Shown piece after piece: positions 3,201 through 63,055 of a DNA stretch of 64,000 bases (positions are counted from its first letter, which is position 1; every line of letters begins with the position of its first letter). The DNA lies in NCBI RefSeq assembly GCF_035083965.1, contig NC_089727.1:3849501-3913500 (forward strand). The letters are read 5' to 3'. A model generated the notes under the pieces. That model did not search any database. It saw nothing but the letters and a program-made list of their open reading frames with translations, and was not told where the DNA came from. This stretch comes from Branchiostoma lanceolatum (Eukaryota; Chordata; Leptocardii; Amphioxiformes; Branchiostomatidae). The position numbers and the translations under genes were made by a program.

Positions 3201-6200
3201 AGCTGTGTCCAGTTCACGGACAACGTGTTGGAGTACGGGAGTCCGGCCGAGGTCATGTCGGTGGCCGAAGAACTGACCGGACGGCTGGATCAAACCATGG
3301 AACACAAAAATACCGAGAAATCCGAACTGACCAAGGACTTTGTGACCTTGACCTTTGACCTACCAGCGGGTGTACTGGAGCAGGAAGTAGCTAAACTTGT
3401 AGGTGGGATAAACCAGGTGAGAACACCTTTGCGCCCACCTCAAATCATGCAGGTACGACCGAACGTGGTGATCGGTGGTGGCGGCGCGAGTCTAAAACGA
3501 GTGAAAGCTGTTGGGGAGGAAGGCAGTCAAGATGGACAGTTTTACTATCTGACCTCTCTCGCTGTCACCGTGGAGGGAGACATTGTAGTGACTGATTGTT
3601 ACAACGAACGCCTGCAATTTCTGGACAAAGATGGCGCCTTCCAGAAGAAGGTCGATCTGGGGTTCGGGCCATTGTGTGTGGCGGCACTGACAAACGGTGA
3701 GCTGTTGGTGACAGGAGACGGACACAGGATTCACGTACTGGACAAACAGGGGAGGGAGTCACGTGTCATCCAGGTGACAGGGGCTGCAGAGCCAGAGGAA
3801 ACTACAAAAGGCGTTGCTGTTGACGGTTTGGGACGCATCATCGTCACTATCGGGAACCAGGTTTTCGTACTCAGTCCCAGCGATGACGTCATGCTGAAGT
3901 TCGGGGACGGAGGTCAAGGTCAGCAGCTGGGTTCCTTCCTCCGCGTTGCCGTCAACAGCAGCAACCAAATTATCATCAGTGACGAAGTCAAGCACGACTT
4001 GAAGATATTTGACCCCGCCGGTCGTCATCTCATCACGTGTGGGTCATACGGCTCGGAACCTGGTCAGCTGTACAACCCCGATTGTGTCATCACGGACAGC
4101 GAGGACAACATCATCGTGGCTGACGGGAACAACCATCGTGTTTCCGTGTTCAGTCGAGACGGCACGTTTATCAGGCACGTGCTGACACGGGAAGAACACG
4201 ATCTGTACTATCCACGGGTACTGGCGCTGACTCACGACGGACATTTGGTCGTTTTCGATTATGATAATTCTATCATATTTTTCCACGGAAAATGAAAGTT
4301 TTTCTAAAAACTTCCCAACATCTTTCTAAGACACTACTAGTATGTAGCGTCATATATTTATGTGTGCTGCTACGTTACGATTCAAATTCATTCTCTACAA
4401 GAACAAAGTATGTCTCCAAAATCATTGTATCATGTGTACGTTATTTGTAATCGTTTTATATCCAACAAGGACAAAATAATAATTTTATATCAGCTAGAGC
4501 AAAAAGGTTGTCATTTTAGAATCATATCTTTGTATCATCAATATTGCTTTCAAGTATGTTTACATTTTTAACCCTCTGTATTTTAATGTAACGGGGGTTG
4601 CCCTACCTTAGGACGCGCCCTAACTTAGGACGGGTTTTTTAGTGATCTTTTTATGCATAAGTACGCCGTGTTTGTGTCCACTGATTATGCTCATAAGGAA
4701 GATAAATGAACCAAGTCCATGCACATAATTTTTATTTGCATTCAAAACATATGTGTACATATTCATTTCTTGTTTTGTCGAAAAGTAGTATTTTGACAAT
4801 AATGATGGCAACGCTGAGTAGAGGGTCACTGCGTAGCTAGACGGCCCGGCACCTAAATATACGACCTGTGCCAAGCAGATACATAAGTCACACAGCTATC
4901 ATACACATAAAAAAAATAATTTCATAAAACACTAAAAATTTGGGTCTTTAAGTGTTTGTTGAGAAGAAAACCGACCAAAGAAAAACAACGTAAACATTGC
5001 TGTCGTCTGACGACGTTGTTTTCCCGCCATTTTTTTGGACCGCGATGGCGGCGGGACGATTCAACGCACAGCTTTGTTACGCTCTAACATGTGATTGGTA
5101 CCGTCTATGAAAAGGAAACTGTATACAGAGATGGCGAAGATGTTTCCCAATAAGTAGACGGAGTATTGTTGATGTAAGCGGTGTCGTTTTTTCGTAATGA
5201 TTTCGTAAGTCGGGCCGCATTCAATACGTACGTCGGGCCGCGTAGTAGCCTATTTCCCGTGGGAACATGAGCTGGGATGCGCTAGATATAGCCCTTCTCA
5301 CATGACGTTAGAAGTGCACACAGTCAAAATTTTCCGGTCAAAAGAAAGCTAGAATATAGCAGACTTCAAGCCTTATTTACATTTCCCTAACTTCATCACC
5401 AACTTCCGAAGAGAGCAAAATTACCAAAGCGTACGAAGTTAGGCACACTATCTGGCGTAGCACTAAATCAGAAGGTACATTCGTGAAAATGTCTCACAGC
5501 GTCTTCCGCATGTAACGCGGAGCATGAAGGGCCCATGAACAGTATGAATACATTTCTTGTCCAAGTATGGTCTTTAGATGAATGTGTTCAAAATTCATTC
5601 ATTAAAACCTGACCACTCTCTGGCAACCAGCAATGGAGCGCCGTGAGTTCCAGCGCGTAAAAAAACGTCCGAATATTGGGCACCCCCCGTTACACATAAA
5701 ATAAACGTTGATAAAGTTTAAAACCGTTAGGTGTTGGTCAATAAAGGATTGTTTTAGGCACACTTGAAGTTTTCTTTCATATATTGTGGGGGTTTCGAGT
5801 ATTTGTTCATACTATAAACTTCGGAACAGCGTTCTCTAAGAGCCAATAACTTGGGCGCGAAGATGGTTACTAGGCAAGCCACGGCTGTTAGCCTAATCTA
5901 ACAAAAGAAGCGCACTAATAAGGGCAATAAAGGATGTATGTGATAACATGAAGACGTTTTTCTCATTATATATTGCCTATTTGTTTGTTTGTTTGTTAGT
6001 TTCTTTGCTTGTTAGTTAGTTTGATTGTTTTGCTTGCTTTGATCTCGAATAGCAATTTACCCCATTGCTCTTCCCGGGAGACATTGTACACCTGAATATT
6101 TCCAACATTCAAAAACTTGAGACATCAAACACTAAGAGCTAACGTGGGGTAACATAAATTCGCCATTTTTCCGATAATGGTTGACTGAAATCAATCTAGC

Positions 6201-47252: not shown

Positions 47253-47470
47253 GGGCCCGTTCATATTTGTGCGTATGAGTTGCGTATTGACATGTTTTTG
47301 GTTTAGGTAAAGTTTGCGACTAAATAAGTCATTTTTTGTTGTTTCGATAACCATGCTGCACAAGGGTGGGTCAACGTTGAAAACAACCTTTCCCCGCAAA
47401 ATTTCCCTAAACCAAAATAAAAATTTAATACGCAACTCATACGGAGCTGAGTATACGCACAAGTAACACC
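47253..47470. mobile_element. MITE family M2, copy 1
   Basis: TTTGTGCGTATGAGTTGCG pairs with CGCAACTCATACGGAG and TATACGCACAAGT. TTTTTGGTTTAGG pairs with CCTAAACCAAAA. The core CTGCACAAGGGTGGGTCAA is shared with the copy at 48166. Confidence 0.5.
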
Positions 47471-47836
47471 CAGCAAAGCACGTGTACAACAACACTCCAT
47501 GATCCAGACAATTAATTCTGAACACAACTATTTCTGAGAGGTATCTTGAACATTTCCTGCTGAGATTAACTTCTTTGATGTTTCACTCGCGAAGTCCTTG
47601 TAAATGAATTATGAATGCTTTTCGCGAGAGCCATCCACCACTCTGAGATTCTTCAGTTTAATGAAGTTGTAATAGTCTGGGAGGAAAGCTGGGTGCGCTG
47701 AACTCCCGAGTGGTGCGAAGTAAGCGATGAGAAGTAACCCTGCAAACTTCGGGTATAAGCGGTGTCATGCTAAAGATATAATTTAGTGGCATCAATGGCT
47801 GAATGGGAATAAGATGAAATGGAAAAAATGTAAATA

Positions 47837-48165: not shown

Positions 48166-48393
48166 AGCCCCTGTCACACTTGTGCGTATATACAAGCCCG
48201 CATGGGTTGCGCATTAACATGATTTTGGTTTAGGTTAAGTTTGTAGCCGAATAAGGGATTTCTTATGTTCGATCACTAAGCTGCACAACGGTGGGTCAAA
48301 GTAGAAAACTACTTTTCCAACTTTTAAACCTTACTTAAACCAAAATTAATGCGCAACTCACGCGCACTTGAATATACGCACAAGTGTGCCCTA
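48166..48393. mobile_element. MITE family M2, copy 2
   Basis: Ends CCCCTGTCACACTTGTGCG and CGCACAAGTGTGCCC are inverse, and internal GATTTTGGTTTAGGTTAAG pairs with CTTACTTAAACCAAAAT. The core CTGCACAACGGTGGGTCAA matches copy 1. It lies 0.9 kb from copy 1. Confidence 0.5.
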
Positions 48394-48682
48394 ACACAGA
48401 ACTAAGGACAGGGAGCCACCTGATGAATAAGTATACTGTAAACGTGCTGTCGGTGTTGGGAAGAATTTTCCTAAATGAATATCAAACTTTTCCACCACGT
48501 AAGCGACATAGCACGCGGTGTGACTGACAGCTGTATAACTGTTGCCATGACTACAGAGCTAGAATGTTGAGAGGCGCGGCTCTAGCGTGTTTTCGCAGTT
48601 CATAACAAAATCAGAGACTGCAGAGGAAGGAGCAGAGACGATAACTTGCCATTTTTCGATCCAACCAACAAAAGATGTAAAC

Positions 48683-51600
48683 ATGAGAACAAGCCACCGC
48701 CGCCGCCTGATCCATCGGTAAGTATCTCTAACTTCTCACGCAGCTAGAACAGTTGGTCAACTTCGTTGTACGATTTGTTTTGTCATGGGATTTTTATAAA
48801 TATTAGAGCAGCGACGCTTTAATTTCCCCACAAATAGGATGGTAATTTTGCTTATGGCTCTAGCTTATTTATTGGTTGGTCTTGTGTCGCATCTAGATCT
48901 CCTTTTCATCATGCATAGATGGTTATTATTGTTATTATGTAATTAGTCGTAGTTTGTGTTTTTATATTGTGAAACCTGAAAAACAGGCTTGCCTGAGTAT
49001 ATTTTCCCTCTATAAATAAAATAAATGAAATAAATGAAATGGAACATTCGATAAGCTAATGAAGCGATAAGCGTGATAAGCGTGATGAAGCGAACTAATT
49101 TTTTGTTCGTACATAATTTTCAGCGACTGCTGGCCATTTACCATGTCAGGTTTCCGTGGCAAACTTGTTTTACAATGCAAGGAATCCTTACCGATATCAA
49201 GGGAGCATAAGGATAAACGTGGGCAGACACAATTCAGGTTTGGCGGGAACACAGTCATTTATTCCTCAAATGGAATTATAAACAAGTATAAAAACAGATG
49301 AGTATAAAGGAAATGATATAAAACAAGGTACAGAATGTATACGATAATTTCGTCTAAATAACAAACGTTCTTTTAGTTAATTTCCGTGGGGTTAACGCAA
49401 GACATTAATGATTTGCTAGTCAAGCTCCATTCAAAGTTTACGACATAGGCAAATATAATAAATCATAAACCAAGTTGCGTCCACGGTAAAGATTAGGCAT
49501 CAAACCACCATACGGCATTGAGTTGGGCATCAACGGGAGTAACTACTCAACGGAATATACAAACCAACTAATGCGAGATAGGGACTTATAAAGTTGGCCA
49601 TCAACGGGAGTAACAATCGAAACGGGTAACAATTAACAATATATTAAGAGTTGGCCATTAACAGGAGTTACGGCTCAACAGAGTAACAAGTAACAATATA
49701 ATAATGAACATAAAGTAACTAGTGCTGGGATACGGATATATAAGGTTGGTCGATAGCAGGAGTACCAATTCAACGGAGTAGCAAGTATCGATATAACATA
49801 GAGCTGCTCAAGCAGGAGTAGCATCTCAACGAGATAACAAGTAACAATATAATATCCATCATAAACTACTGTGGGATACGGGCGTACAAAAGGATCTGCA
49901 CTAAGGCCTGCACATGGTGCTTCCTTACACCATATCGTGTACACAGTAGAAAACATAAACTATGACTGAGGCGTGTACATAGCGCCTCCTAACACCATAT
50001 CGTTTACACAGTAGAAAACATAAACTATGACTAAGGCGTGTACATAGCGCCTCCTAACACCATATCGTTTACACAGTAAAAGGCATAAACTACGAACTAA
50101 GGCGTGTACATAGCGCTTCCTTACCACATGCCGTTTATACAGTAGAAAATAAAAACTGTTAACTAAGGCGTGTACATAGCGCTTCCTTACACCATGTCGT
50201 TTACACAGTAGGAAATATAAACTATAAACTAAGCCGTGTACATAGCGCTTCCTTACACCATGTCGTTTACACACTGGAAAACATTAACTAAGGCGTGTAC
50301 ATGGCGCCTCCTAGCACTATTATGTTTACACAGTAAAAAACTTAAAGTTAAAACTATCCTATGCTGCGCTATGGTCGTATGTATGACCGAAATGCATCTG
50401 AGGACCACCTCCCTAGCGCTCTAAGTTGTTTGTCAGGAACGCCGCTAAGGGCCGCATGAGTGGCGGCCCCAATACGGAATGAGTGGGCCGTGAATTCACG
50501 GGGGTCCAGTTCGACGTGTTTGACACATTTGCGTAGTGTGTGTGAGAAGAGATCGCTAGAAACTGGGCGGCCATCACTACGGAGGAAAAGGCAACCTGCG
50601 CGATTCCCCCGTATTGTGAGGTACGATTTCAGGCTGGCTACTGGGCAATACGAACTGCCGGTGTTTGGGGATATCGAGATAGTTGCAGGGCGGCTAGGGT
50701 TACCGTGCTTATAGGTGCGAAAGGTGACTAGTATGGAGTGGGGGTGTGAGGCCTGACTGTTGATATCCGAGAGCTGTAATGTGTGGTTGGCCGCGCCAGT
50801 GACCGTGACTTCCCCTATACGTGATAGTGAGTGGTAGCTGAATAGGAATAGAGCTTTGAATAGCTGTCGGTCGTAAGCGTGGCTGGTGACTGAAGGTATG
50901 GCGTCAAGAAGGGCTTTGAGAATAGAGGGAGTGATTGGTCTCCTTCCGTCCGGAGTTTGAGACTTGCGAGAAGCACGTACGAGTTTTTGAATGATGAATG
51001 ATTGAGTTGGGTCAGGAAAATTTAGCAGCTTATGGACGAAGGCAACAGCGGATAGTTTAGGTGGGATAGACGAAGCCGCATAGCCTTTGTTATGCATGTA
51101 TGCGACAAACTGAGATACAAGGTCTGGTGGGACTGGGAGGGTGGTCAGATCTTGACCGTGAATTTCCAGGGTGAATTGGCGGAATAACTGCCACGCCTGA
51201 CGGTAGGCACGAAAGGTGGACGGGGCAATTGACGAGGTGAGTAAGTCTGTCACAGTTTGATTAAGGCTGTCGGCTGCAGGGGTAGTGGTACTGGCGTTGG
51301 GTGGGGGTCCATATGGGGGTAGGCCTGTCGGAAACGGGATACCTGTAATCGAGACAGAGTGTCAGCCATGTCATTTTGTGAGCCAGGCACATGCGTCGCC
51401 CGACACATGATGTTATGTCGTAAAGAGACCAATACGAATCGGCGAACGAGTGGCATGATTAAAGGGTTCTTAGATGTTTGATGGTTAATAATATAAACCA
51501 GTGCTGCGTTATCCGTATGTAGGAGAATGCTTCGGTTTGACCATTGCTGACCCCACATGTGGAGAGCGACTACGATAGGGTAGAATTCTAAGATAGTTAT

Positions 51601-54600
51601 GTTCCGCGAGCGGAGGGAAGGGGGCCAGGGGCCATAGAACCAGGCTGACCCACAGATTCCCCCGTAACCCAGGGACGCGGCCGCATCGGTGAAGAGGTGA
51701 AGAGTTGAATTAGAAACGAATGTGTCATCTAAAAAGAAAGACCGGCCGTTAAAGTCGTTCAAGAAGGTGAGCCACAGACGCAAGTCTTGGTGAACTGTCG
51801 ACGGTAAAGGTATAAGGCTGTTTGGTTTGCGGGATTTTGTTAGATCAATTAGACGGCGTAAGAAAGCGCGTCCCGGGGGTACTACTTGACAAACATGATT
51901 AAGGAGACCGATAAGGGATTGAATTTGTTTAAGGCTAGCGCTATGCAGGCTCAGAAAGGAAAAGGATTTGCTCCCGGCATTTGGTTAATTTGTCTGGAGG
52001 AAGCCTGGCCTCCATAGCCACGGTATCAAGTTCTATCCCTAAGAAAGACATTGTGGTGTCCGGGGAAAACGTTTTCTCCTCCGCTAGGGGGACACCCACG
52101 TCGTGGCACATATTAGAGAATGCAGTTAGGTCGCGGTGGCAACTTGTGAAAGACTTGTTGGCGAAGAGAAAGTCGTCGAGAATATGGGTAGGGAACTTGA
52201 TGTGTAGTTTATTCCGGGCAATCCATTCGAGGGCAGAACTGAACGATTCGAATATACTACAGCTTATTCTGGAGCCCATTGGTAAACATTTGTCATAATA
52301 AAATTCCCCATTCCAGTAGAATCCTAGAAGGTGATGATCGTTGGGGTGAATCGGGATTAAACGGAAAGCCGCTTCGATGTCAGTTTTCGCCAAGAAACAG
52401 CCTGGGCCGAGAAACTTAATGTGGCGGATGGCGTTTGTGATGTTCGCATACGTAACAGTCGATAAATCAGGCGGGATACCGTCATTGACGGAATTGTTGG
52501 GAGGATAAGAAAGGTCGTGTATGAGGCGAAATTTACCGGGGGTCTTTTTGGGGACTGCGTACAATGGGGAGAGAAAGAGATTTGGAAAAGGTGGAGAAGA
52601 GAAGGGTCCAGCAACCCGCGTAGACACCAACTCTATCTGCAACTTGTTGTAGATTGGAGTGAAATGGGAATGTTTTGGCTGGGGGGGGAATATTAGGGGG
52701 CGGGTTCTAACGCCAAAATATTCTAGTGGGAAACCAAAGGTGAAGCCACTTAAAATGTAGTCTTTGTCTCGTACCGGGTATCCACAAAGATATGTAGAAA
52801 GAGAGCGGACATTTACTGGGGTAGGTAGCAGGGCGACCTGAGGTATGGGGTTAGCGTTTACGTGGATTGGCCGATGACGCGTCTTTGCAGAGTGGGGCCT
52901 TGTGTGCGCCAGAGCCGCATTTGTAGCAGGAATGCTTGTATAAGCAGTTGTGCTGGAAACACTGGCCGTTTGGTTTGTGGTATTGAAAACAATACCCGGC
53001 CGGGATGTTTGGGGTAGTCTTTGGGCTGGGAACAGCGGAGCGAGCAGAGGAGGCTGTTGACGAAGGGGGGGTGGAGCGGGCGGAGGAAGCTGTTGACGAA
53101 GGGGCGGGGTACAAGGCGTCTACATACAGTTGAAGGTGAGGAGTGTCCCAGGGGGCGGTGGGGTTCTTCTCTCTGTACTGTCTAAACAGCTCGTCATACC
53201 GAAGCCAGTCTGCTTGACGATCGGCTAGTGTACGCACGAGGTGTTGGTAGGCTAAGAGCTGAGGGCTGTGGGAAGGGTGAAGTTGGATGTAAATGTAGTG
53301 GAAAATGAGGAATGCAGTTGTCCACTGCTCCAGTGAGAGTGGGTGCCTTTGCTCGGTGGAGCGGTTTGCCAAAGTCAAAGTTGGGGTGAGAGTGTTTGAG
53401 AGGGATACAGTGTACTGCGGGGCCGACTGGAAGGCGGGGAGTAGGTTTTTGAAGTAGACGAATTTGTGACGCCAAATCTTGTCTTTAATGTTGTCAGAGA
53501 TCCCTGTGTCTAAGGGAACGTGGAGGCCGGTGTTGGCGTGGGAGACTGGGTCAAAAGAGAGGGGAGGCACGAGGGGGGAGGTCTCAGAATGCTGTGAATG
53601 TGTGGTCTTATCAGATGCATGTGATTCTGTTGTCTTATCGCTATTGATAGTGTTACCTAATATTGACGCTGCTATTGTCTCTGCCGGGGTCCTCGTGGGG
53701 GTGTCTATGCCGGTCGGCGGCAGGGTCGGGAGGCCGGAGGCTGTCGTCCCGGGGGCCCGCGGCGGGTTCTGTGTAGATGCTGGTGGTGTCATGATGGAGG
53801 CTAAGCTCTGCTGGATTGACTGGGTGACGGATGTGAGCGCGCCCAGCTGCTCCTTGAGGGATGTGATGTCTGCAGACGTGGTTGTAGACGTGGTCGTGGT
53901 CGTGGTGGTGCTGCTGGTCGTAGCGTCCTTGTCTGCCCGCGTTTTCCTCGGCCGCTTCGGAGGAGGCACGATGGGCTCAGGTGCTACGCCGGATGATCGA
54001 GTGCGTGGCATCGCTAGGGCTCAAGGTGAAAAGAAAAGGTGTGAATAAAATATATCGGTTGCACGGCAGAATGTTTCCGACAGGTAAGCGGATATACATG
54101 TCGGGACCGAAAGGGGTAGGTTTCGGATCGACATTCAAAGAACAGCCATGACGCCGCAACCTGCGTTATTGGGATGTTTAGTGGACCCTAGATATGGTTA
54201 TGGGAAAGTGCACCGGAATTTAGGTGGGTCCTGTCGGTCACCGTGGCAACCGCCAGAAGGATAATGAGAGTAAACAATGTTGCGCCCGTCAGCACGGGAA
54301 AATAATTAGCCGCACCACACGACAGGGTATAAAGAAATTCCTTTCGCCCGACAGCACAGTCGTAAAAGAAACAACTGCGCCACACGTCGGGACGAGGGTA
54401 GTAAATAAATCCTTTCGCCTGACAGCACAGTCGTAAAAGAAACAACTGCGCCACACGCCAGGACGAAGGGAGTAAGGAAATAACCTTGCACGTCAGTACA
54501 TTGCATTGGCTAGGTACCACACGACGTAACTAGGTTTAATAAAAATTAAAAAATTAGAAACGGCTATTTCACGCCGGTAGCGGTACGTTGATCAGGACAC

Positions 54601-57600
54601 GATACCACATGGCGTGACATACACAAATAACTGGAAAACGCACTACATGACGTGACGAGGTGCAGTTTTAATGGAATATAAGGTATGTCATCTATTATGG
54701 GAACTAGATGGGAGGGTGGGTAAAAACTTCGGAGCGAAAGATTGGCGTGTGCTTTCACAACGAGGTGTGGGCTGAGAATGATTTGGATATAGGTCTGGGG
54801 GATGTGGCGGTGTTGAGACCACCAGAGGGTGTTGTTCGTTCCTCGCCACAGGATATGATCCTGACACCCCCGTTTTACAACCCCGGTTTGTCGGCTACTT
54901 GGCACAAAGAGATCTCGGGTTTTCACGTGGGAACGGCCTGACCACCCTGCTAGCTAGTCGGTCGGAGTTCCTTTTCTTTCAAAACACGTTTTTACCATGT
55001 CAGGTTTCCGTGGCAAACTTGTTTTACAATGCAAGGAATCCTTACCGATATCAAGGGAGCATAAGGATAAACGTGGGCAGACACAATTCAGGTTTGGCGG
55101 GAACACAGTCATTTATTCCTCAAATGGAATTATAAACAAGTATAAAAACAGATGAGTATAAAGGAAATGATATAAAACAAGGTACAGAATGTATACGATA
55201 ATTTCGTCTAAATAACAAACGTTCTTTTAGTTAATTTCCGTGGGGTTAACGCAAGACATTAATGATTTGCTAGTCAAGCTCCATTCAAAGTTTACGACAT
55301 AGGCAAATATAATAAATCATAAACCAAGTTGCGTCCACGGTAAAGATTAGGCATCAAACCACCATATAGCTCACCAATTGTGAGCAGAAACAAAGGGGCC
55401 AAAAGGGCGCGAAATGCGACCAAACATGGAGAGTAGAAAAGCCTACCCGCGAAGAATTCCGCATTTCGAGTATCGGATCCAATTATATTATATCTGAACA
55501 ACAACATATGCTCGTAAGAAACGTCAAATATTATGAATGGTACGATTCAGGAGGCGGAAGGTGTGGGATAAGTGCTCCCCGTATACTTCTGTAATACTCT
55601 AAGTTGCCTAGTTCGCTGAGATGGAGTCCATCTTTGACAAAATAGTTTGGGTTTTTCTGCCAGAGTTTTTTGTGATACCATCTGTGGACCGAAGGTGTCG
55701 CGTCGACGAGGGGGCGAAATACTCGGCGGAAATCCTCGATGCGATCATGGAAGTTCGGCATCCCACGTGGCGGTTTCAGTCGCCATAATGGTTCAGCCAC
55801 TACGACGACGGAGACGGACGGAATGTTGGAGATTCGGCCGGATAGGGCTACTAGGTCATGTGCAATTTTGTCGGGATGCATGTAAGGCCGACAAATGTCG
55901 TTGTGAGCCAGTTCGACATATACAATGTCTGGGCGAGTTTCTCTAAGAATAGGGAGGACACTGTTGTAATATTTTGGAATAGAACAGCCCGGAACGCCGT
56001 GGAAGTTAATGTCGACATTCGCTAGCCAAAAGTCTGGACTGACAGCCCGTCCGGAGGCCGTGGACGTCCGTCGCTGAATGAAATTGTCAAGTCTAGAGAC
56101 AAAAGAGTGGCCAGTAATGGCGATACGTTTAGTAGGGGGATCCATTAATGTAAAAGGGGGCAGCTCACCGTGTGTTTGAATCCTTGGGTTGGATTGCAAT
56201 GGCCGTCTTTGAACGTTGGCTGTTGAAAGTTGGCTGTTGGCTGTCGTCCTGTTGCTCAGCGGGGCCAGGTTCAGCGGGGCCTGGTGTACAGCGGGGCCTG
56301 GTGTACGTAGCTCCGGGCGATACCACCGCTGTTGAACGTTGACTGTTGAACGTTGGCTGTTGGCTGTTGTCCTGTTGCTCAGCGGGCCCTGGTTCAGCGG
56401 GGCCCGGTGTACAGCGGGGCCTGGAGTACGTAGTTACGGGCAGGACTGTTCAGCGGGACCGCCGGGGCCGGATGGACGGAGCGAAGCAAAGCAAATGTCG
56501 GTGCCAAGAGTCCAGATAACAGCGTCTGGGGAGCAGATGTCGGTGCAAAAGTCCGGATAACAGCGTCTGAGGAGCAAATGTCAGTGCCAGAGGAGCGAAA
56601 GATTGGCGTGTGCTTTCACAACGAGGTGTGGGCTGAGAATGATTTGGATATAGGTCTGGGGGATGTGGCGGTGTTGAGACCACCAGAGGGTGTTGTTCGT
56701 TCCTCGCCACAGGATATGATCCTGACACCCCCGTTTTACAACCCCGGTTTGTCGGCTACTTGGCACAAAGAGATCTCGGGTTTTCACGTGGGAACGGCCT
56801 GACCACCCTGCTAGCTAGTCGGTCGGAGTTCCTTTTCTTTCAAAACACGTTTTTCCCGGACGGTTTCTGTCGGGACGCAGCCGCTCTACCGCGGAAGCGA
56901 AGGACGGACGCCGGGAAGCCGAGCGCCCCCCGCCGCCGGTAACTACCTTTCTCACTCCGTTCACTTCTCCGTTCCATAAGTACTTTTCAGCTAGCTCACA
57001 ACGGTTGAGATTTTCCTTGTAGAATCTCTTTGTAAAATATAAATGTTCAAGGCAACGGTAAAATTGTTTACATTTCCAACAATGTTAAACATTATACGAC
57101 TGGCAGTAAGTTGTCGGGAAATCTTGGAATAACCGTAGAACGATTTTTCGATTAGTCATACATATAGATGTTGAACAATATTTTCTTTGTTTTTAATGTT
57201 TGCCAACCAAATCATTTGTGATCTTTCGCCTAATATAATGATTTGAAAAAAATGTTACGTTCAATATCCCGCATGAGAGCTAATAAAAGAGCTGATTATT
57301 GATATGTGTTTTTTTCAGCGGGGTGACGCCCAGCCAGTCGGCCAACAACCGGCCAAACCTCCCGACGACTACCAGTGTCGCGGGTTCGACGGGCCCGCTG
57401 ACTACGGTGGGCGCGGACCAGGGTTTGACGGGGCCCCTGACTACGGTGGGCGGGCACCAGGGCTCGACGAGCCCGCTGACTACGGTTAGACTGTCCGTTA
57501 CTTTTACAGATAGTTAAGGTTTGCTAGCCTTCGCACAAAATACCTAAGGCCTAGGAAAGTTAATGTTGTTCATCCTTAAAAGAATAAGGTAAGGAGGAAT

Positions 57601-59013
57601 TTTCTTTCTTTTCTAGATATCGGCCGAAGTGATCTAAGAAATACAGTTTAGCGATGCAAAACTGAAATACACCAGGACACTGGTATTTTCAACATAATAA
57701 TGTAATTTTACAGATGTGCATTGTACAAGCACAAGTTTATTGATAAAATCAACCAAGAAGTACAATGGTTATGTTCTGTTCTGTTCCAAGCCTTAATCTG
57801 CTAACAGAGTATAAAACACATGAAGTCTATAGAAAATATGTAATAATAAAAATGTGTTAAATAATGTTTTATTTGCAAATTCATGCCCGTAGGCTAATTG
57901 CAAGGGTACAAAGAGTAGAGAGGGTAACAATGGTAACGAGTATCTAACTAACATTTCTACATAGAACATTACTGGGGTGACTTCTTCTTTGCAGACAGTG
58001 GCTGATGAAAAATCCCACGTTTTTAATGCTTAGTGATTAATAATCATATTTGCAAGACTACGTGGAATTTCTTTTCTTCAAATTTCATTACTCAGGTGTC
58101 ATATTGAACATGTTATGTCCCTTGCTATCGGTTGACTCCAAAAAAAGGCTAGAGTCTTTGCTAATATCGGTCGGGTAACCGGTAACACAACATTTTTTAT
58201 GTACAATTGCAACATTTTTCCTAGGCCCTAACATGTAGACCAGCCAACTGATTCAATGTATTATAGGAATTAACGTTAAGTCAGATATTGGACCATTTAT
58301 TTCCGATTAGAATCATCTTGAGTTTTTTATTGGTGATTGGTCAAAAAAATTTATTTGAAACGTTAATGATGATTTGTCCAAGTTCTCGTAAAACACCTAC
58401 CGTCATGGTACTACCAAGTAATGTTTTGTGATTCTTAGGTCTTGTATTTTCTGACCTTGATAATGATTTTCATTATTTGACAGTTTGAATACTTGTTGCT
58501 ATGATAGGTTGCTACATGGCTAAATATACACTTACATTTCTGATTAACGTTGATGGCGCGCTCACACCAGTGTTTGGTTGTTTATTTGTTTGTTTGGTCA
58601 GTTATTTGCTACCCCAGTTTTTATCTTATTTTATTTTTCTAGTTTGTTTATTGCATTTCACAAAATAAACAACACATGATAGAAAACAAGAGAAAGGCAA
58701 AGTACAGGAATATAACATAAGCCACGGATCCACTGTGTAGATATAAGTAATATCCATAAGAATGATTATAACAGTATCATTGGCAAATAATTATAAGAAA
58801 ATCAAGATCAACCAAAGATTACAGAACATTGAAATCAAACAGTTGCCAAATGAAATATGCTACCCCAGTTTACATTGTCATATCATAGACAGATGTCTTT
58901 ACATGCCAACCTGCCGAAGTCATAAAGAAAACATACAAAAATTACAATAATTCCCATTCATTTTTTCAGGTGAGACAGCCGGCTGGTTGTTCACCCGCCC
59001 CGAAAGTGGATGA
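48683..59013 (+). CDS. Small four-exon gene interrupted by a YR retroelement (function unknown)
   Basis: Proposed exons: 48683-48717, 49124-49139 joined to 56855-56938, 57319-57484, and 58970-59013. The frame is open only if the retroelement (49140-56851) and one duplicated TTT core are removed. Phases then agree at every junction (2, 0, 1) and give 114 residues. Exon 3 encodes a Tyr/Asp/Gly-rich repeat of 13 residues (GFDGPADYGGRGP and two variants) after PPDDYQC. There is no signal peptide or membrane segment. I do not recognise the family; the style resembles a cytoplasmic tail. With the element in place, exon 2 acquires 7.7 kb of insert, so this allele is probably broken unless the insert is spliced out. 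The start ATG is tentative: the frame is open upstream and further exons may exist. The exons may also be the 5' leader of the LRR gene. Confidence 0.5.
49140..49512 (-). repeat. Split direct repeat B2 (outer copy)
   Basis: It starts ACCATGTCAGGTTTCCGTGG on the plus strand and ends CAAACCACCATA. The same 373 bp occur at 54994-55366 in the same orientation. It marks the outer (left) edge of the element. Confidence 0.5.
49513..50348. repeat. Two minisatellite blocks inside the YR element
   Basis: From 49513 to 49860, a loose repeat carries GCATCAACGGGAGTAAC-like text with CTCAACGGAGTAACAAGTA. From 49903 to 50348, about seven units of 65 bp carry AGGCGTGTACATAGCGC and CCATATCGTTTACACAGTA. Both lie 3' of the YR ORF in coding orientation. 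Confidence 0.5.
50369..51253 (-). CDS. Tyrosine recombinase of the YR retroelement
   Basis: 294 residues. The N-terminal SAM-like core-binding region (STFRAYRQAWQLFRQF) is followed by a catalytic domain with R in SLSRIGEV, HSFR (H-x-x-R), GRW and the nucleophile Y in SYIRP. These are the R, HxxR, W and Y residues of the family. It would integrate the circular cDNA without target duplication. Its ATG overlaps the RNase H stop codon (ATGA at 51250-51253), a tight coupling typical of these elements. Confidence 0.5.
   Translation of the reverse strand: MTDLLTSSIAPSTFRAYRQAWQLFRQFTLEIHGQDLTTLPVPPDLVSQFVAYMHNKGYAASSIPPKLSAVAFVHKLLNFPDPTQSFIIQKLVRASRKSQTPDGRRPITPSILKALLDAIPSVTSHAYDRQLFKALFLFSYHSLSRIGEVTVTGAANHTLQLSDINSQASHPHSILVTFRTYKHGNPSRPATISISPNTGSSYCPVASLKSYLTIRGNRAGCLFLRSDGRPVSSDLFSHTLRKCVKHVELDPREFTAHSFRIGAATHAALSGVPDKQLRALGRWSSDAFRSYIRP
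51250..51960 (-). CDS. RNase H part of the retroelement pol (separate frame)
   Basis: The frame is open from about 51960 and carries the RT thumb/connection text (SLHSASLKQIQSLIGLLNHV), then the RNase H domain: LHLFTDAAASLGYGG (first D), FYPIVVALHMW (E is in LEFYP), LLHTDNAALVYII (third D), and SQNDMADTLSR near the end (last D). An ATG lies at 51783 but the connection segment upstream is clearly coding. It is out of frame with the RT by one base near 51954. Confidence 0.5.
   Translation of the reverse strand, partial: SFLSLHSASLKQIQSLIGLLNHVCQVVPPGRAFLRRLIDLTKSRKPNSLIPLPSTVHQDLRLWLTFLNDFNGRSFFLDDTFVSNSTLHLFTDAAASLGYGGICGSAWFYGPWPPSLRSRNITILEFYPIVVALHMWGQQWSNRSILLHTDNAALVYIINHQTSKNPLIMPLVRRFVLVSLRHNIMCRATHVPGSQNDMADTLSRLQVSRFRQAYPHMDPHPTPVPLPLQPTALIKL
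51941..52850 (-). CDS. Reverse transcriptase part of the retroelement pol
   Basis: The ORF extends upstream of the first convenient codon (52642) to overlap the gag end; text such as YLCGYPVRDKDYILSGFTFG is family-like. RT blocks: FRLIHDLSYPPNNSVNDGIP, LAKTDIEAAFRLIPIHP (first catalytic D), LPMGSRISCSIFE, and HILDDFLF (a LDD variant of YxDD), then VPLAEEKTF and MSFLGIELDT. The frame stops at 51941 just after QILFL, where related proteins continue into the thumb; see the frameshift finding. Confidence 0.5.
52851..54011 (-). CDS. Gag-like protein of the YR retroelement
   Basis: 386 residues. A basic N-terminus (PPPKRPRKTRADK), a Ser/Thr-rich linker and a helical middle part (YVSFKNLLPAF-like segment, LEQWTTAFLIFHYIYIQ) are followed by cysteine motifs: CFQYHKPNGQCFQHNCLYKH, a C-x8-C-x4-C-x3-H-type finger, and CYKCGSGAHKAPLC, a C-x2-C-x4-H-x4-C zinc knuckle. 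This pair is typical of DIRS/Ngaro gag proteins that package RNA. It is intact. Confidence 0.5.
   Translation of the reverse strand: MPRTRSSGVAPEPIVPPPKRPRKTRADKDATTSSTTTTTTTSTTTSADITSLKEQLGALTSVTQSIQQSLASIMTPPASTQNPPRAPGTTASGLPTLPPTGIDTPTRTPAETIAASILGNTINSDKTTESHASDKTTHSQHSETSPLVPPLSFDPVSHANTGLHVPLDTGISDNIKDKIWRHKFVYFKNLLPAFQSAPQYTVSLSNTLTPTLTLANRSTEQRHPLSLEQWTTAFLIFHYIYIQLHPSHSPQLLAYQHLVRTLADRQADWLRYDELFRQYREKNPTAPWDTPHLQLYVDALYPAPSSTASSARSTPPSSTASSARSAVPSPKTTPNIPAGYCFQYHKPNGQCFQHNCLYKHSCYKCGSGAHKAPLCKDASSANPRKR
54190..54520. repeat. Tandem repeat in the gag leader, about 65-70-bp unit
   Basis: CAGTCGTAAAAGAAACAACT and GCGCCACACG recur at 54356 and 54429, with a weaker copy near 54290. It lies between repeat A2 and the gag start. 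Confidence 0.5.
54731..54993 (-). repeat. Split direct repeat A2 (inner copy)
   Basis: 263 bp from GGAGCGAAAGATTGGCGTG to CAAAACACGTTTTT, identical by eye to 56592-56854. It abuts repeat B1 directly, forming the inner B1-A2 junction. Confidence 0.5.
54994..55366 (-). repeat. Split direct repeat B1 (inner copy)
   Basis: 373 bp, the same as 49140-49512. The junction CACGTTTTT/ACCATGTC with A2 reproduces the join expected in the circular intermediate. Confidence 0.5.
55531..56199 (-). CDS. SGNH/GDSL-type hydrolase of the YR retroelement
   Basis: 222 residues. The motif order fits the SGNH fold: block I is GHSFVSRL (the S follows GH instead of GD), block III is ELAHNDI, and block V is DGLHLSELG with the D and H of the triad. 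Such ORFs are known from Ngaro elements and some CR1-like LINEs; the role in the life cycle is unknown, with esterase action on lipids proposed. It sits alone between repeats A1 and B1, separated from the other ORFs. Confidence 0.5.
   Translation of the reverse strand: MQSNPRIQTHGELPPFTLMDPPTKRIAITGHSFVSRLDNFIQRRTSTASGRAVSPDFWLANVDINFHGVPGCSIPKYYNSVLPILRETRPDIVYVELAHNDICRPYMHPDKIAHDLVALSGRISNIPSVSVVVVAEPLWRLKPPRGMPNFHDRIEDFRRVFRPLVDATPSVHRWYHKKLWQKNPNYFVKDGLHLSELGNLEYYRSIRGALIPHLPPPESYHS
56205..56591. repeat. Imperfect tandem repeats upstream of the SGNH ORF
   Basis: GTTGGCTGTTGGCTGT with CAGCGGGGCC occurs at 56214-56330 and again at 56335-56450. GATAACAGCGTCTG with ATGTCGGTGC recurs in 56490-56590. 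It is non-coding leader between A1 and the SGNH start. Confidence 0.5.
56592..56854 (-). repeat. Split direct repeat A1 (outer copy)
   Basis: The same 263 bp as 54731-54993. Its TTTTT end joins host exon sequence CCCGGACGG, marking the right edge; the last TTT may be the shared target core. Confidence 0.5.
57485..58969. other. Intron of the small gene, no feature seen
   Basis: AT-rich, with a GTTT run at 58575-58600. No exon or clear mobile element is supported. Confidence 0.5.
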
Positions 59014-59113
59014 TACTAGAGCGATCTTCGCAGACGCCAGAATCTAAGGAGAAAAGCTTTGTATTTTCTAGTCATTACTTGAATGTTAAAGTATTGAATG
59101 TTGAATATCTAAC

Positions 59114-61204
59114 ATGTTTAAGGTAGTACCGATGATCGTAACTGTTCTCGCCATCGTAGTTGGGTGTGTAGGTTTAGACTCGGCATGTTTTCCTGGGTGC
59201 AAGTATACAAATCAATGGTCAGATTGCGTCCCTTTTCGTAGGTCAGACGGGTTGAGTTTGCAAACACGGGGCACTTGCATCTTATGCACCGTGCAGCTGC
59301 AGCAGAACTCCTCCAAGCCAAATTCACTATGCCTAGGGCTTTCCGATAAAAATCACGTGGCGGTTAGGGGGGTCAAGCTTGGGGAGCTCTCAATTCAGAA
59401 ACTACTGCCCCCTAAGAAGTCTTCAGTAGATATCTTTGATCTTGCTTTGGTGGAATGTGGAATCACAGATGTAGAACAGGGCACTTTGGCCGCGTTTCCT
59501 CGATTGAGTTTCTTGCAGCTTGATTCCAACAACTTGACTCACGTCAAGCGAGCCTGGTTTCACAGTTTGAAGCATCCAGAGTTGCTACGCACGCTGTCAT
59601 TGTCCCAAAATAACATAAGTATCATAGATCCATCATGCTTCCAAAACCTCACTTCCCTATCGACATTGCTACTTGACAATAACTCACTACAAGGCGTTAA
59701 GCCATCTTGGTTTCACAATCTGAAATGGTTAGGCCACCTTTCTTTGAGATCAAATTCCATCGACAGCATTCATCCTCAGGCATTTAAGTCACTGACGAGG
59801 CTGGACACGCTAGATTTGAGCAGAAATGAGTTGACGTGTCTGTCATGGGAGACTGTGAACGGGCCACAAGAACTAAGATTTCTAGCGGTGAGCGGGAATA
59901 GATTGTTTGCTATCCATGATTCTGCTCCTTCGTTAATGCACTGGCGTCTTGAGTATACTTATGCCCCCTTTTCCAGCCAGCGTACGCGTGTTGCAGTTAG
60001 GGTTAACCAAGTGCTTTTCTGTATCGCCAAAGGTCCTAAACTGACGCAATATTACGTACACATACACCATTACAACCTAGACCAGTCGGATAGGCCAATG
60101 TACACTCTATGTAGAAACTTTGAGTTGGCCGAAGCAAAGCAGATAAAGTATGACCTAACGTTACCATTTGTGGCCCTGGCTCTGTCAGTCAACACAGAAT
60201 CAGACAAACAAGTTTCAAATACGAACCACCTGTGCACACATGATTGGAAAGATGTCAGAGGCGTAACGGTAGCATTGCGGGGAGACACTACTCTGCAGAT
60301 TCTTCCCATAGGCGCACACAATTCCAACGAACCCCAAACTGTCGCTGTAGTCGTGTCAGATATCATGGCTGATACTAACAACAGAAGCATGTCGTATGCT
60401 GGTGGTCACAGTAGAAACATCAGCACCTTTGGTCATGAAGAAATGATGAATGTGACATGTCATGTCTGGTGGGAGACATACCGACATGTCTTCACCACGC
60501 CCATGTCCAGCACTCCCGATGTCTGTACAGAAAAGATGACCCAGGCCACAATTGAACCAAAAACCAAGGTCCCCCCGAATCAGACGACCCCTGTAAACGA
60601 AACCTTGACGGTGCGACCGGGAAAAGAGCGACGCGCATACTTTGATGTAGGGATCATCACAGTATTAGCTGTAACGTTAACGCTAATAGTAGTGGTCGAG
60701 AATGTAGCACTGCTAGTGGCGTGTATCATCAGAAAGCGGCGCTGTTGTTCGCGGCCGGGCAACCCACCTCCGCCGCCGGCTGTCGTCCCCCTGAATCGCT
60801 GGGTACTCGGTGGGGCAGGTGGCCATGCTGTCTCTACCGTAGGCGACCAGCATCCGTACAGCGAAATTCCCGACGACTACTACAGACACCACACCACACG
60901 GCCGGGGGTGCAACAGCCTTACTCGGAAATCCCAGATGAGTACTACACCCAGTACTACAACACACGGCCTTGGGTACAGAATCCTTACTGGGTAATCCCA
61001 GATGAGTACTACAAGTACGAGAACACACGGCCCCTGTCATACCCCCTGACTCTCCGGGTGCCCGACGAGGATGACGCTGCTAGTTTCTACGCCGCTGCAG
61101 CCGAGGTGGTAGCCTGGAATCCCGACCTATTTATAGCTGCCGGGTCTCTTCTCTCCCTCCGCTATTTTGCGGAGGGAGAGAAGAGACCCGGCAGCTATAA
61201 ATAG
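59114..61204 (+). CDS. Leucine-rich-repeat transmembrane receptor, single exon, C-terminus replaced by a MITE
   Basis: 696 residues. A signal peptide (MFKVVPMIVTVLAIVVGCVG) is followed by a cysteine cluster, then five to six LRRs at about 110-275 (FPRLSFLQLDSNNLTHV, LRTLSLSQNNISIIDPSCF, LSTLLLDNNSLQGV, LGHLSLRSNSIDSI, LDTLDLSRNELTCL). The ectodomain continues to about 510, with a membrane helix near 515-540 (IITVLAVTLTLIVVVENVAL) and RKRRCC. The tail has three 22-residue repeats (PYSEIPDDYY, PYSEIPDEYY, PYWVIPDEYY) rich in tyrosines with YxxI spacing, suggesting signalling adaptors. The last 32 residues come from the inserted palindrome at 61110-61221. The first in-frame ATG is used because it opens the signal peptide. 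No close named family is assigned. Confidence 0.5.
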   Translation: MFKVVPMIVTVLAIVVGCVGLDSACFPGCKYTNQWSDCVPFRRSDGLSLQTRGTCILCTVQLQQNSSKPNSLCLGLSDKNHVAVRGVKLGELSIQKLLPPKKSSVDIFDLALVECGITDVEQGTLAAFPRLSFLQLDSNNLTHVKRAWFHSLKHPELLRTLSLSQNNISIIDPSCFQNLTSLSTLLLDNNSLQGVKPSWFHNLKWLGHLSLRSNSIDSIHPQAFKSLTRLDTLDLSRNELTCLSWETVNGPQELRFLAVSGNRLFAIHDSAPSLMHWRLEYTYAPFSSQRTRVAVRVNQVLFCIAKGPKLTQYYVHIHHYNLDQSDRPMYTLCRNFELAEAKQIKYDLTLPFVALALSVNTESDKQVSNTNHLCTHDWKDVRGVTVALRGDTTLQILPIGAHNSNEPQTVAVVVSDIMADTNNRSMSYAGGHSRNISTFGHEEMMNVTCHVWWETYRHVFTTPMSSTPDVCTEKMTQATIEPKTKVPPNQTTPVNETLTVRPGKERRAYFDVGIITVLAVTLTLIVVVENVALLVACIIRKRRCCSRPGNPPPPPAVVPLNRWVLGGAGGHAVSTVGDQHPYSEIPDDYYRHHTTRPGVQQPYSEIPDEYYTQYYNTRPWVQNPYWVIPDEYYKYENTRPLSYPLTLRVPDEDDAASFYAAAAEVVAWNPDLFIAAGSLLSLRYFAEGEKRPGSYK
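60843..61030 (+). repeat. Three 66-bp coding repeats in the receptor tail
   Basis: Units begin CAGCATCCGTACAGCG, CAGCCTTACTCGG and AATCCTTACTGGG. Each encodes PY-x-x-IPD-x-YY and later TRP. Confidence 0.5.
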
Positions 61205-61221
61205 GTCGGGATTCCAGGCTA
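61110..61221. mobile_element. Perfectly palindromic MITE inside the LRR coding sequence
   Basis: The ends TAGCCTGGAATCCC and GGGATTCCAGGCTA begin arms of 53 bp that are exact inverses, with only TATTTT unpaired at 61163-61168. Direct 9-bp copies CCGAGGTGG flank it at 61101-61109 and 61222-61230. The 121-bp gain shifts the frame and supplies a new stop at 61202-61204. No sequence divergence between the arms is seen, implying great youth or arm homogenisation. Confidence 0.5.
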
Positions 61222-61230
61222 CCGAGGTGG

Positions 61231-61481
61231 CCCTCCCTCCATCGACCCGCCTGGGTGGCAAACATCCATCCTACAGCAGACCCCCTCTTACTAGATCAGT
61301 CTCACAGATACATGCACGCCAGAGGAGGACGCACATTAAATCGTACGGCATGCATGTAGCGGGCAGGTACAGGGTCAGAGATATGGCCGCCATTGGTAGA
61401 TATGGTAGAACACGGGGGGCCCTAGTGTCCACGGCTGGCCTGTATAATAACCCCTCTGCTCAGCGTACCCTGCCTTTATAG
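61231..61481 (+). pseudogene. Former 3' coding end of the LRR gene, now cut off
   Basis: If the MITE and one CCGAGGTGG are removed, the receptor frame continues from GAGGTGG into CCCTCCCTCC and stays open for 84 codons, to a stop at 61479-61481. That frame is basic and Tyr/Arg-rich (GRYRVRDMAAIGRYGRTRG). The open frame after the insertion is the main evidence that the insertion is recent and truncating. Confidence 0.5.
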
Positions 61482-61504
61482 CAAGCATACGGCAGACAAA
61501 CATA

Positions 61505-61691
61505 AGCCTCTACGAGGCTCCAGAGACTGCTGGAAAGAGTAGAAATTAGCCGAATAGACAGATACCATGCCACAATAGCTAGTCCGCTATAGTAGTACAG
61601 TTTGCTTGTAGGACTAACTCCTTTGGCATGTTACCTGTCTAGTTGGCTAATTTCTGCTCTTTCCAGTGGTCTCTGTAGCCTGGTAAAGGCT
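61505..61691. mobile_element. Foldback MITE, Mutator-like family, copy 3
   Basis: The arms AGCCTCTACGAGGCTCCAGA and the inverse of GGTAAAGGCT pair for about 60 bp through TGGAAAGAGTAGAAATTAGC. Direct flanks are AGACAAACATA (61494-61504) and AGACAAACGTA (61692-61702), 11 bp with one mismatch. This confirms the 11-bp duplication seen at 45740. Confidence 0.5.
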
Positions 61692-61704
61692 AGACAAACG
61701 TACG

Positions 61705-63055
61705 GCCTGCAAACGGACGCTCAAGGACACGCTCAAGGACACGCTAAAACTTGTCATACCTACAGGCCCCAAGTCCCCCGTTCTTAAAGAGAATGCCTTT
61801 TTAAGTATGGGAAGGTCAACGGTACAGTTTGAGCACCTGTAGCATGGGGTATCTAAGCCGGTAAAGAGGGGTCAGTCCACAAACAGGGTAAATCATCGCC
61901 TACAACGTATCTAGGGAGTGTACATTATTTATCTGGAAAGGGTTAGTACCTACTGGTTGGTTATGAGACAACATCCTGTCACACCAAGGGGGAGAGACAA
62001 GCAATCTATTCCTGTTCCAGAGACAGTCACAGTCAATATTTTTCACCCTCCAACTTCATGTTGTCAACAACACGCCCTGGCCCTGAATCTAAACCTAAGT
62101 AAAGATGCCGCCAAATTTGTGACACCCACCCCACCCAACCTGCCTAATTCCATATGCCTGTATCTAAGGTGCTGTGATTCCACCTCAACTAAGGGAAGAC
62201 ATAGAGCTTGCCAGATTTTTGACCAGCTGCAAATTGTTCTGTAAAGTTCGCGCCGAAGCCGCACCAACATTTGTGACATTCAATGCTTATCAATCTTGCC
62301 CCCAGGAAAATAGCCGGGTTTGGTAATTGGTCTTTTGATATAGAAATTGTCATCTTGTGGCTTTAAGTATGTATCAAGAAAATGTATTTCTAGACAATAG
62401 GTTCAGACAGTAAAAGCTCATCTGTCAGGTTGTACTGTCAAACACATTCAATTTAGAACTGTGAGTTGTGCATTAGGAAAATCCTCAAGATGAACCATGT
62501 AAAACTCAACCCTTTCAGTTTTCAGAACTGACAGTCAGAAATATAACGTAATGTACTACAATGCAGATGGAAAAGAGCTTTGATTCTAAATATACTTATC
62601 TAAATTGTACAAAAAGCTCAAGCAAGGTGGCTAGCAAAATGCACTTTTCAATAATAAGGCTGCTACGCTGTAAATCAAGGGCCTTTCCAGAAACAGCCTA
62701 GGGAGGGGCCAGAGTAACATTTTGAATGAATAATAATTCGGCTATTATTATGATTATGCATCGATCATAAACAAGCCTACAACAATGGATCATCCCTGTT
62801 TCCCAGTGCAATACACCTATTGTACCGGCCTGTCTTTCACTTCCTATTGGCTGTGCAAGGCCCTGAATATTTTGCAAATAATGATGATAATCAAATGATA
62901 CCTATTTGGCAGTTTTAGACCAGAAATGCCCAGTTGCTTTGTTTACTTCCTGTTCCAAATATCTGAAATCAATCTGGATCACAAGAATGTTAACGTTAGT
63001 ATTACATAGTTAATCTTGAAGAATGTGTTGTAACGTGCCTCAACAACCGATAAAT
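61705..63055. other. 3' flank without a recognised gene
   Basis: CTCAAGGACACG is tandemly repeated at 61721-61745. Otherwise it is AT-rich with no exon I can support. Confidence 0.5.

Follow-up and report, generated by a model that had tools for sequence, protein, structure and literature searches.

What did the element at this locus land in, and how much of the state before its arrival can still be read? The window, i.e., the whole 64,000-nt stretch of DNA that was analysed, contains a YR retroelement that the first-pass annotation had placed, as an intact copy, inside a coding exon of a four-exon gene. A young, precisely readable YR insertion into a likely exon is supported by the analysis. 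The best explanation of the whole, towards which we lean by a modest measure, is a recent and precise insertion of a Ngaro-like element into three T of a leader exon of an LRR receptor. The element and its two pairs of split direct repeats are as follows:

49140-56854, minus strand: YR retrotransposon, Ngaro-like, 7,715 nt, recognised by repeat ends, junctions, ORFs and domains
56592-56854, minus strand: terminal repeat A1, 263 nt, identical to A2
54991-55366, minus strand: internal repeat B1, 376 nt, with a coding-strand AATAAA at 55117
54731-54993, minus strand: internal repeat A2, 263 nt, adjoining B1 via a T5 tract
49137-49512, minus strand: terminal repeat B2 (in the coding direction), 376 nt including three T common to the target, with AATAAA at 49263

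YR retroelements insert without target duplication, and for this reason it is difficult to tell from a single copy exactly where such an element ends and what its target was. In the present case, the two ends, the internal junction and the presumed target can all be read, and their T counts agree. The exact element ends float in the flanking T tracts, and there are three junctions to compare: GGCCA-T3-ACCATG on the left, CACG-T5-ACCATG inside the element, and CACG-T5-CCCGG on the right. The T residues balance (3+5 = 5+3), and beyond them element and target have nothing in common. On the assumption that a circle with the internal type of junction recombined with n T in the target, the T count requires 5+n = 3+5; n is then 3, and the reconstructed empty site is GGCCATTTCCCGG (GGCCA-TTT-CCCGG), the same as the joined text given in the first-pass annotation. 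The legible empty site that it described, with the flanks joined as TGGCCATTT and CCCGGACGG, is indeed found in the sequence. Its deletion needs a correction: the joined flanks stay in frame, but the interval 49140-56851 is wrong, since the exon coordinates given with it call for 49140-56854; removal of the shorter interval would leave six T, with the frame unchanged. As judged from the T3/T5 balance and the reconstructed empty site, target-site duplication is absent and a short junction is common to element and target. Identical split repeats and balanced T-tract junctions agree in showing that the insertion of a YR retroelement is real.

These junctions suggest a simple course of events. A circular cDNA with the junction CACG-T5-ACCATG would form and recombine, by means of the element's own YR, with the target GGCCA-T3-CCCGG, so that T3 remains to the left of the insert and T5 to the right. 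Such an integration would be recent, its target would be the three T, with no base lost or duplicated, and this target would belong to an internal exon, small and GC-rich, of a transcript read from the plus strand.

The age of the insertion can be estimated from the repeats. The segments 49137-49512 and 54991-55366 are identical (376/376), as are 54731-54993 and 56592-56854 (263/263), which bears out the earlier view that the insertion is young. As 0/639 paired positions differ, the rule of three limits the divergence to less than about 0.5%, indicating a young insertion unless the repeats were homogenised. Second copies of the element or solo repeats were not detected in the window (blastn, E≤0.01; tblastn of the five ORFs, E≤1). 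If the host is a lancelet, an empty allele is probably still around, a SNP polymorphism rate of 4.39% being given for the Chinese lancelet (PMC4284660).

All five ORFs of the element are encoded on the minus strand. In the order of coding, these ORFs and the repeat that follows them are:

55531-56145, minus strand: SGNH (GDSL-type) hydrolase, counted from the first Met of ORF 55531-56433
52851-54020, minus strand: Gag-like ORF with a C-terminal CX2CX4HX4C knuckle
51941-53119, minus strand: reverse transcriptase (RT) ORF, Pfam RVT_1, E 1.7e-10
51250-51984, minus strand: RNase H (RH) ORF, Pfam RVT_3, E 5.4e-4, and RT_RNaseH, E 0.0031, both below the cut-off
50369-51361, minus strand: tyrosine recombinase ORF, Pfam Phage_integrase, E 9e-10
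49900-50346, minus strand: minisatellite with a 66-bp unit, 6.9 copies, in the 3' non-coding part of the element

The hydrolase matches Pfam PF13472 with E 2.5e-7 and 31.8 bits, below the cut-off of 32.9; pattern search shows that its motifs GHS, AHND and DGLH are kept, and comparison with PDB gave no match at E≤0.01. The Gag-like ORF has no Pfam match at E≤0.1, and its name is assigned from its position and the knuckle. In the reverse transcriptase, the motif ILDD was seen by eye in the translation, while the pattern [YLFM]xDD did not match. The tyrosine recombinase matches Cre chains in PDB (best E 1.8e-5) and the XerC profile (E 4.7e-8, far below the model cut-off); it contains LSRIGE, HSFR and WSSDAFRSY, in which the R-H-R-W-Y residues were assigned by eye, the H-x-x-R pattern fitting two places. 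Neither a methyltransferase domain (Pfam, E≤0.1) nor a DDE integrase (Pfam) was found in the five ORFs. RT and RNase H occupy different frames with a 44-nt overlap, and because of this split the copy is not plainly intact, so that the description of it as intact was too strong; the split may stem from a mutation, a sequencing error or a frameshift site. On the coding strand of the element there are six AATAAA/ATTAAA signals, two of them in the 376-nt repeat (49263 and 55117) and the other four at 54672, 54540, 53489 and 52213; TATA[AT]A does not occur on the coding strand of the 263-nt repeat. Pattern searches for YR and RT relatives in viral_contigs and for RT in genome_contigs matched 8, 2 and 24 stretches, none of which was confirmed by tblastn.

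On the host side, the parts of the putative transcript and the ORF that follows it are:

48683-48717, plus strand: putative exon 1, from the ATG chosen in the first-pass annotation to the donor TCG/GTAAGT, with a GC block at 48693-48707
49124-49139, plus strand: interrupted exon, left 16 nt, acceptor TTTTCAG/CGA, possible branch point CTAAT at 49095-49099
56855-56938, plus strand: interrupted exon, right 84 nt, donor CCG/GTAACT; 56855-56940 has 76% G+C
57319-57484, plus strand: putative exon 3, a GC block of 0.71 with a 39-bp repeat in 2.7 copies
58970-59113, plus strand: putative start of the last exon, i.e., exon 4 as first annotated (stop at 59011-59013) extended to the LRR ATG
59114-61204, plus strand: single-exon LRR receptor ORF, 696 aa, Pfam LRR_8, E 2.7e-48, with LRR ectodomain matches in PDB

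The splice sites were scored with vertebrate-like consensus matrices, which gave 8.7 for donor 48718, 3.2 for acceptor 49124, 6.7 for donor 56939, 8.7 for acceptor 57319, 4.6 for donor 57485 and 10.8 for acceptor 58970. The weak sites of the model are acceptor 49124 and donor 57485, and stronger sites are left unused by it, namely donor 57589 (11.2) and acceptors 57510 (9.6) and 57617 (13.1). Acceptor 49124 is the sole AG scoring above 0.2 within 200 nt to the left of the insertion, and acceptors as good as this one occur at 10.7 per kb; acceptor 58970 ranks among the top 0.3% of AGs. In exon 3, donors ACG/GTGGGC at 57407 and 57446 (7.0) are carried by two of the 39-bp repeats; they are in the same phase and outscore 57485, so that exon 3 could vary by whole repeats. 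At 58955-58980, the string TTTTTTCAG/GTGAGA scores highly both as an acceptor (10.8) and as a donor (11.1), and has the look of a recursive splice site. Just 5' of exon 1, two related inverted-repeat stretches (47272-47481 and 48175-48402) are 77-82% complementary and MITE-like.

Could these exons make up a separate four-exon coding gene of 114 aa, broken in its second coding exon and thereby inactivated? We regard this as unlikely. The joined exon 49124-49139/56855-56938 (100 nt) is open and ends at the donor CCG/GTAACT, as had been stated, and the phases 2, 0, 1 do fit, the lengths 35+100+166+44 giving one open 345-nt frame of 114 codons; but openness is expected at such G+C, exon 2 being open in a fraction of 0.59 of base-composition shuffles and exon 3 in 0.35, and the joined exon 2 is open in all three forward frames. 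The 39-bp (13-codon) repeat, which preserves the frame in exon 3, speaks for a gene of this kind, as does the codon score of the proposed frame (trained on three host ORFs), which exceeds 99.3% of single-base shuffles; yet at -0.015 versus -0.011 for the next frame and -0.003 for the reverse one, this score does not single the frame out. Chains of at least 114 aa with three introns and a splice sum of at least 42.6 were obtained in 3/60 dinucleotide shuffles, and those of equal or better score in 19/38 same-length segments elsewhere in the window, real genes included; the length of at least 114 aa alone was reached in 22/60 shuffles, and the real locus also has a higher-scoring chain (49.6 vs 42.6 for the model). 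The 114-codon chain has no Pfam match at E≤1, nor does it have an AATAAA/ATTAAA signal to itself upstream of the LRR ORF. Thus, the open four-exon coding gene of the first-pass annotation is not supported: chains as good turn up in shuffled sequence and elsewhere in the window, no frame is singled out by codon usage and no domain is matched. Coding by the interrupted exon is not supported beyond openness. A reverse-strand gene across the joined locus was also considered and dropped, as no three-intron ORF chain appeared at the thresholds used.

The question of whether the interrupted segment is an exon at all was approached through base composition. G+C segmentation of the joined flanks, which is blind to splice sites, delimits the blocks 49123-56939 (102 nt, 0.74) and 57318-57485 (168 nt, 0.71), whose ends fall within 1 nt of the proposed splice sites. 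The outer ends of the blocks are constant at all seven penalties from 3 to 12, the first block being cut once internally at penalties 3, 4 and 5; with the element left in place, the left block edge is not detected. Of the 23 GC islands in the window freed of the element, two, the interrupted exon and its neighbour, are the only ones with an acceptor and a donor within 2 nt of their ends, and random intervals on one strand have both splice sites at their ends with a frequency of 0.00135; the score thresholds of this comparison were set just under the weakest sites of the model, making it partly post hoc. Pyrimidine tracts at splice sites help to place GC edges, and the evidence from islands and splice sites is therefore strong but not wholly independent. 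A search of the window for paralogues of the host flanks returned nothing but the 39-bp repeat of the exon itself and short stretches, 14 to 42 nt in length.

The same data bear on a more sceptical explanation, in which splice-like sites and GC-rich patches line up by chance and the element landed in non-exonic DNA. It would account for the weakness of acceptor 49124 and donor 57485 and for the ease with which equal-scoring chains are found, and it gains from the control joins, because an AG of any score lies within 1 nt of the block start after 11/52 wrong left cuts, which makes the left exon end alone modest evidence. Two neighbouring GC islands that each have an acceptor and a donor, 2/23 against 0.00135 by chance, speak against this explanation, and we consider it less probable still than the four-exon gene. 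The least probable, by a shade, is a three-exon gene that would end in exon 3 with a poly(A) signal near 57845, be hit in its second exon and have the LRR receptor as an independent neighbour: an AATAAA at 57845, the weak donor 57485 and an in-frame TAG (57487) after exon 3 suit it, but the GC block stops at 57485, at a GT, and acceptor 58970 would be left idle. The insertion thus likely lies inside an exon, as far as sequence features can tell; of the earlier placement inside a coding exon, the exon-like GC block with both splice sites holds, while its coding nature has no support in these tests beyond openness.

The reading we favour, in which exons 1-3 and the segment from 58970 onward would be spliced together as a 5' leader for the LRR receptor mRNA, draws on what lies downstream. 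The stop of the chain at 59011-59013 is 100 nt before the receptor ATG, and acceptor 58970 is 144 nt before it. Plus-strand AATAAA/ATTAAA signals in 56856-63000 occur at 57282, 57845, 58664 and 61335, with none between 59013 and 61335. Because the chain stops so close to the LRR start and no such signal intervenes, a leader appears more likely than a separate coding gene. Against a leader, the 114-codon upstream ORF and the ATGs at 59010, 59083 and 59098 would make a poor one, and G+C drops to 0.26 across 59041-59113; with so AT-rich a stretch between them, the connection of exon 4 with the receptor ORF is no more than putative. The receptor ORF has a signal-peptide-like start and a transmembrane stretch, both noted by eye.

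The element is antisense to the gene, and the most likely consequence of its insertion would be skipping of the 100-nt exon, or altered or lost expression of the allele. If the exon belongs to the leader, skipping would keep the receptor ORF whole, which may help explain why the insertion is tolerated. An empty allele, if found, would provide a natural allele pair for an exon insertion 5' of an LRR receptor.

Some other features of the window can be mentioned here. The receptor tail includes a 66-bp repeat of 2.7 copies (60863-61032) encoding YSEIPDDYY, YSEIPDEYY and YWVIPDEYY, peptides reminiscent of tyrosine signalling motifs. A near-perfect palindrome at 61107-61224, with 58-nt arms and at most 3 mismatches, extends over the final ~32 codons of the LRR ORF together with its stop. 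At 2223-4295 there is an ORF of 690 codons with RING, B-box and NHL domains (TRIM type).

As to the class of the element, RVT_1, weak RNase H and Phage_integrase matches in the absence of a DDE integrase identify it as a YR retrotransposon (DIRS order). In the coding direction, its parts are arranged as A1 (263) - SGNH - B1 (376) A2 (263) - gag - RT - RH - YR - minisatellite - B2 (376). The split direct repeats A1, B1-A2 and B2 and the lack of a methyltransferase are those of Ngaro, and the latter sets the element apart from DIRS1-like and PAT elements. In Ngaro, however, the internal repeats are reported to sit downstream of YR (PMC4157794) and RT and RNase H to share one ORF (PMC9210276, PMC3783388), whereas here B1A2 (55366-54731 on the coding strand) comes before gag (54020), and RT and RNase H are in two frames. 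The element would best be seen as a variant, and it is the position of the internal repeats that makes us call it Ngaro-like rather than plain Ngaro. No description of a Ngaro with the hydrolase first or with internal repeats before gag was found in the accessible portions of the literature searched.

This order, the most novel point of the locus, may have a rationale, which we put forward tentatively, as possible rather than probable. The element could be composed of the cassettes A-SGNH-B and A-gag-RT-RH-YR-B, both of which open with the 263-nt repeat and close with the AATAAA-bearing 376-nt repeat; the presence of AATAAA in both copies of the 376-nt repeat suits two cassettes each closed by it. 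A circle would have two identical B-A junctions, either of which could be opened by the recombinase, and a family would therefore be expected to come in two circular permutations, with permuted copies derived from one circle. If so, the present copy would be the permutation with the SGNH cassette first, and the hydrolase would be a gene with transcription of its own.

A close likeness is to DIRS-53_XT of Xenopus, a Ngaro-like element that, in the account available, also has a Gag-like ORF, RT/RH, YR and an SGNH hydrolase ORF, lacks a methyltransferase and has split direct repeats with pairs 100% identical (PMC9210276). Its order is different: it starts at the 5' end with A1 and finishes at the 3' end with B1-A2-B2, the hydrolase coming after YR, whereas here SGNH lies between A1 and B1, and B1A2 precedes gag. 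A Ngaro-like element at the amphioxus VCBP2/5 locus likewise has Gag, RT/RH and YR ORFs; the portion of the report at hand names these three ORFs and no hydrolase, in contrast to the SGNH ORF of the present element (PMC2632668). According to the authors, the split repeats of that element are arranged in a manner distinct from that of others, and this arrangement may be the same as the present one (PMC2632668). Cafeteria Ngaro of virophages, again a split-repeat YR retroelement, is also found inside genes, and since 7/20 analysable insertions are in virophage genes (PMC8547959), Ngaro insertion into genes is not new; its order is given as A1-[ORFs]-B1A2B2, with the hydrolase unmentioned in the part of the paper available, as opposed to B1A2 before gag here (PMC8547959).

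Other split-repeat YR retroelements, VIPER and TATE of kinetoplastids, include some Bodo saltans copies with odd repeat orders, A1 / B1-B2-A2 and A1-A2 / B1-B2 (PMC6681497), unlike that of the present element, and for such complex cases the authors suspect assembly or nested insertion (PMC6681497). For DIRS1-like elements, with ends such as NTT, the same model of integration has been described, in which recombination takes place between a circle junction of 3 bp and the same trinucleotide in the genome, without target duplication (PMC3266345); unlike the present element, they have inverted terminal repeats and a methyltransferase domain (PMC3266345). PAT-like elements carry a methyltransferase domain, for which no match was obtained here, and share the split direct repeats, with a placement of internal repeats that differs between nematode and echinoderm forms (PMC4157794). 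An element of two cassettes that can be opened at either junction, if this is what the present copy represents, would help explain the varying placement of internal repeats across YR retroelements.
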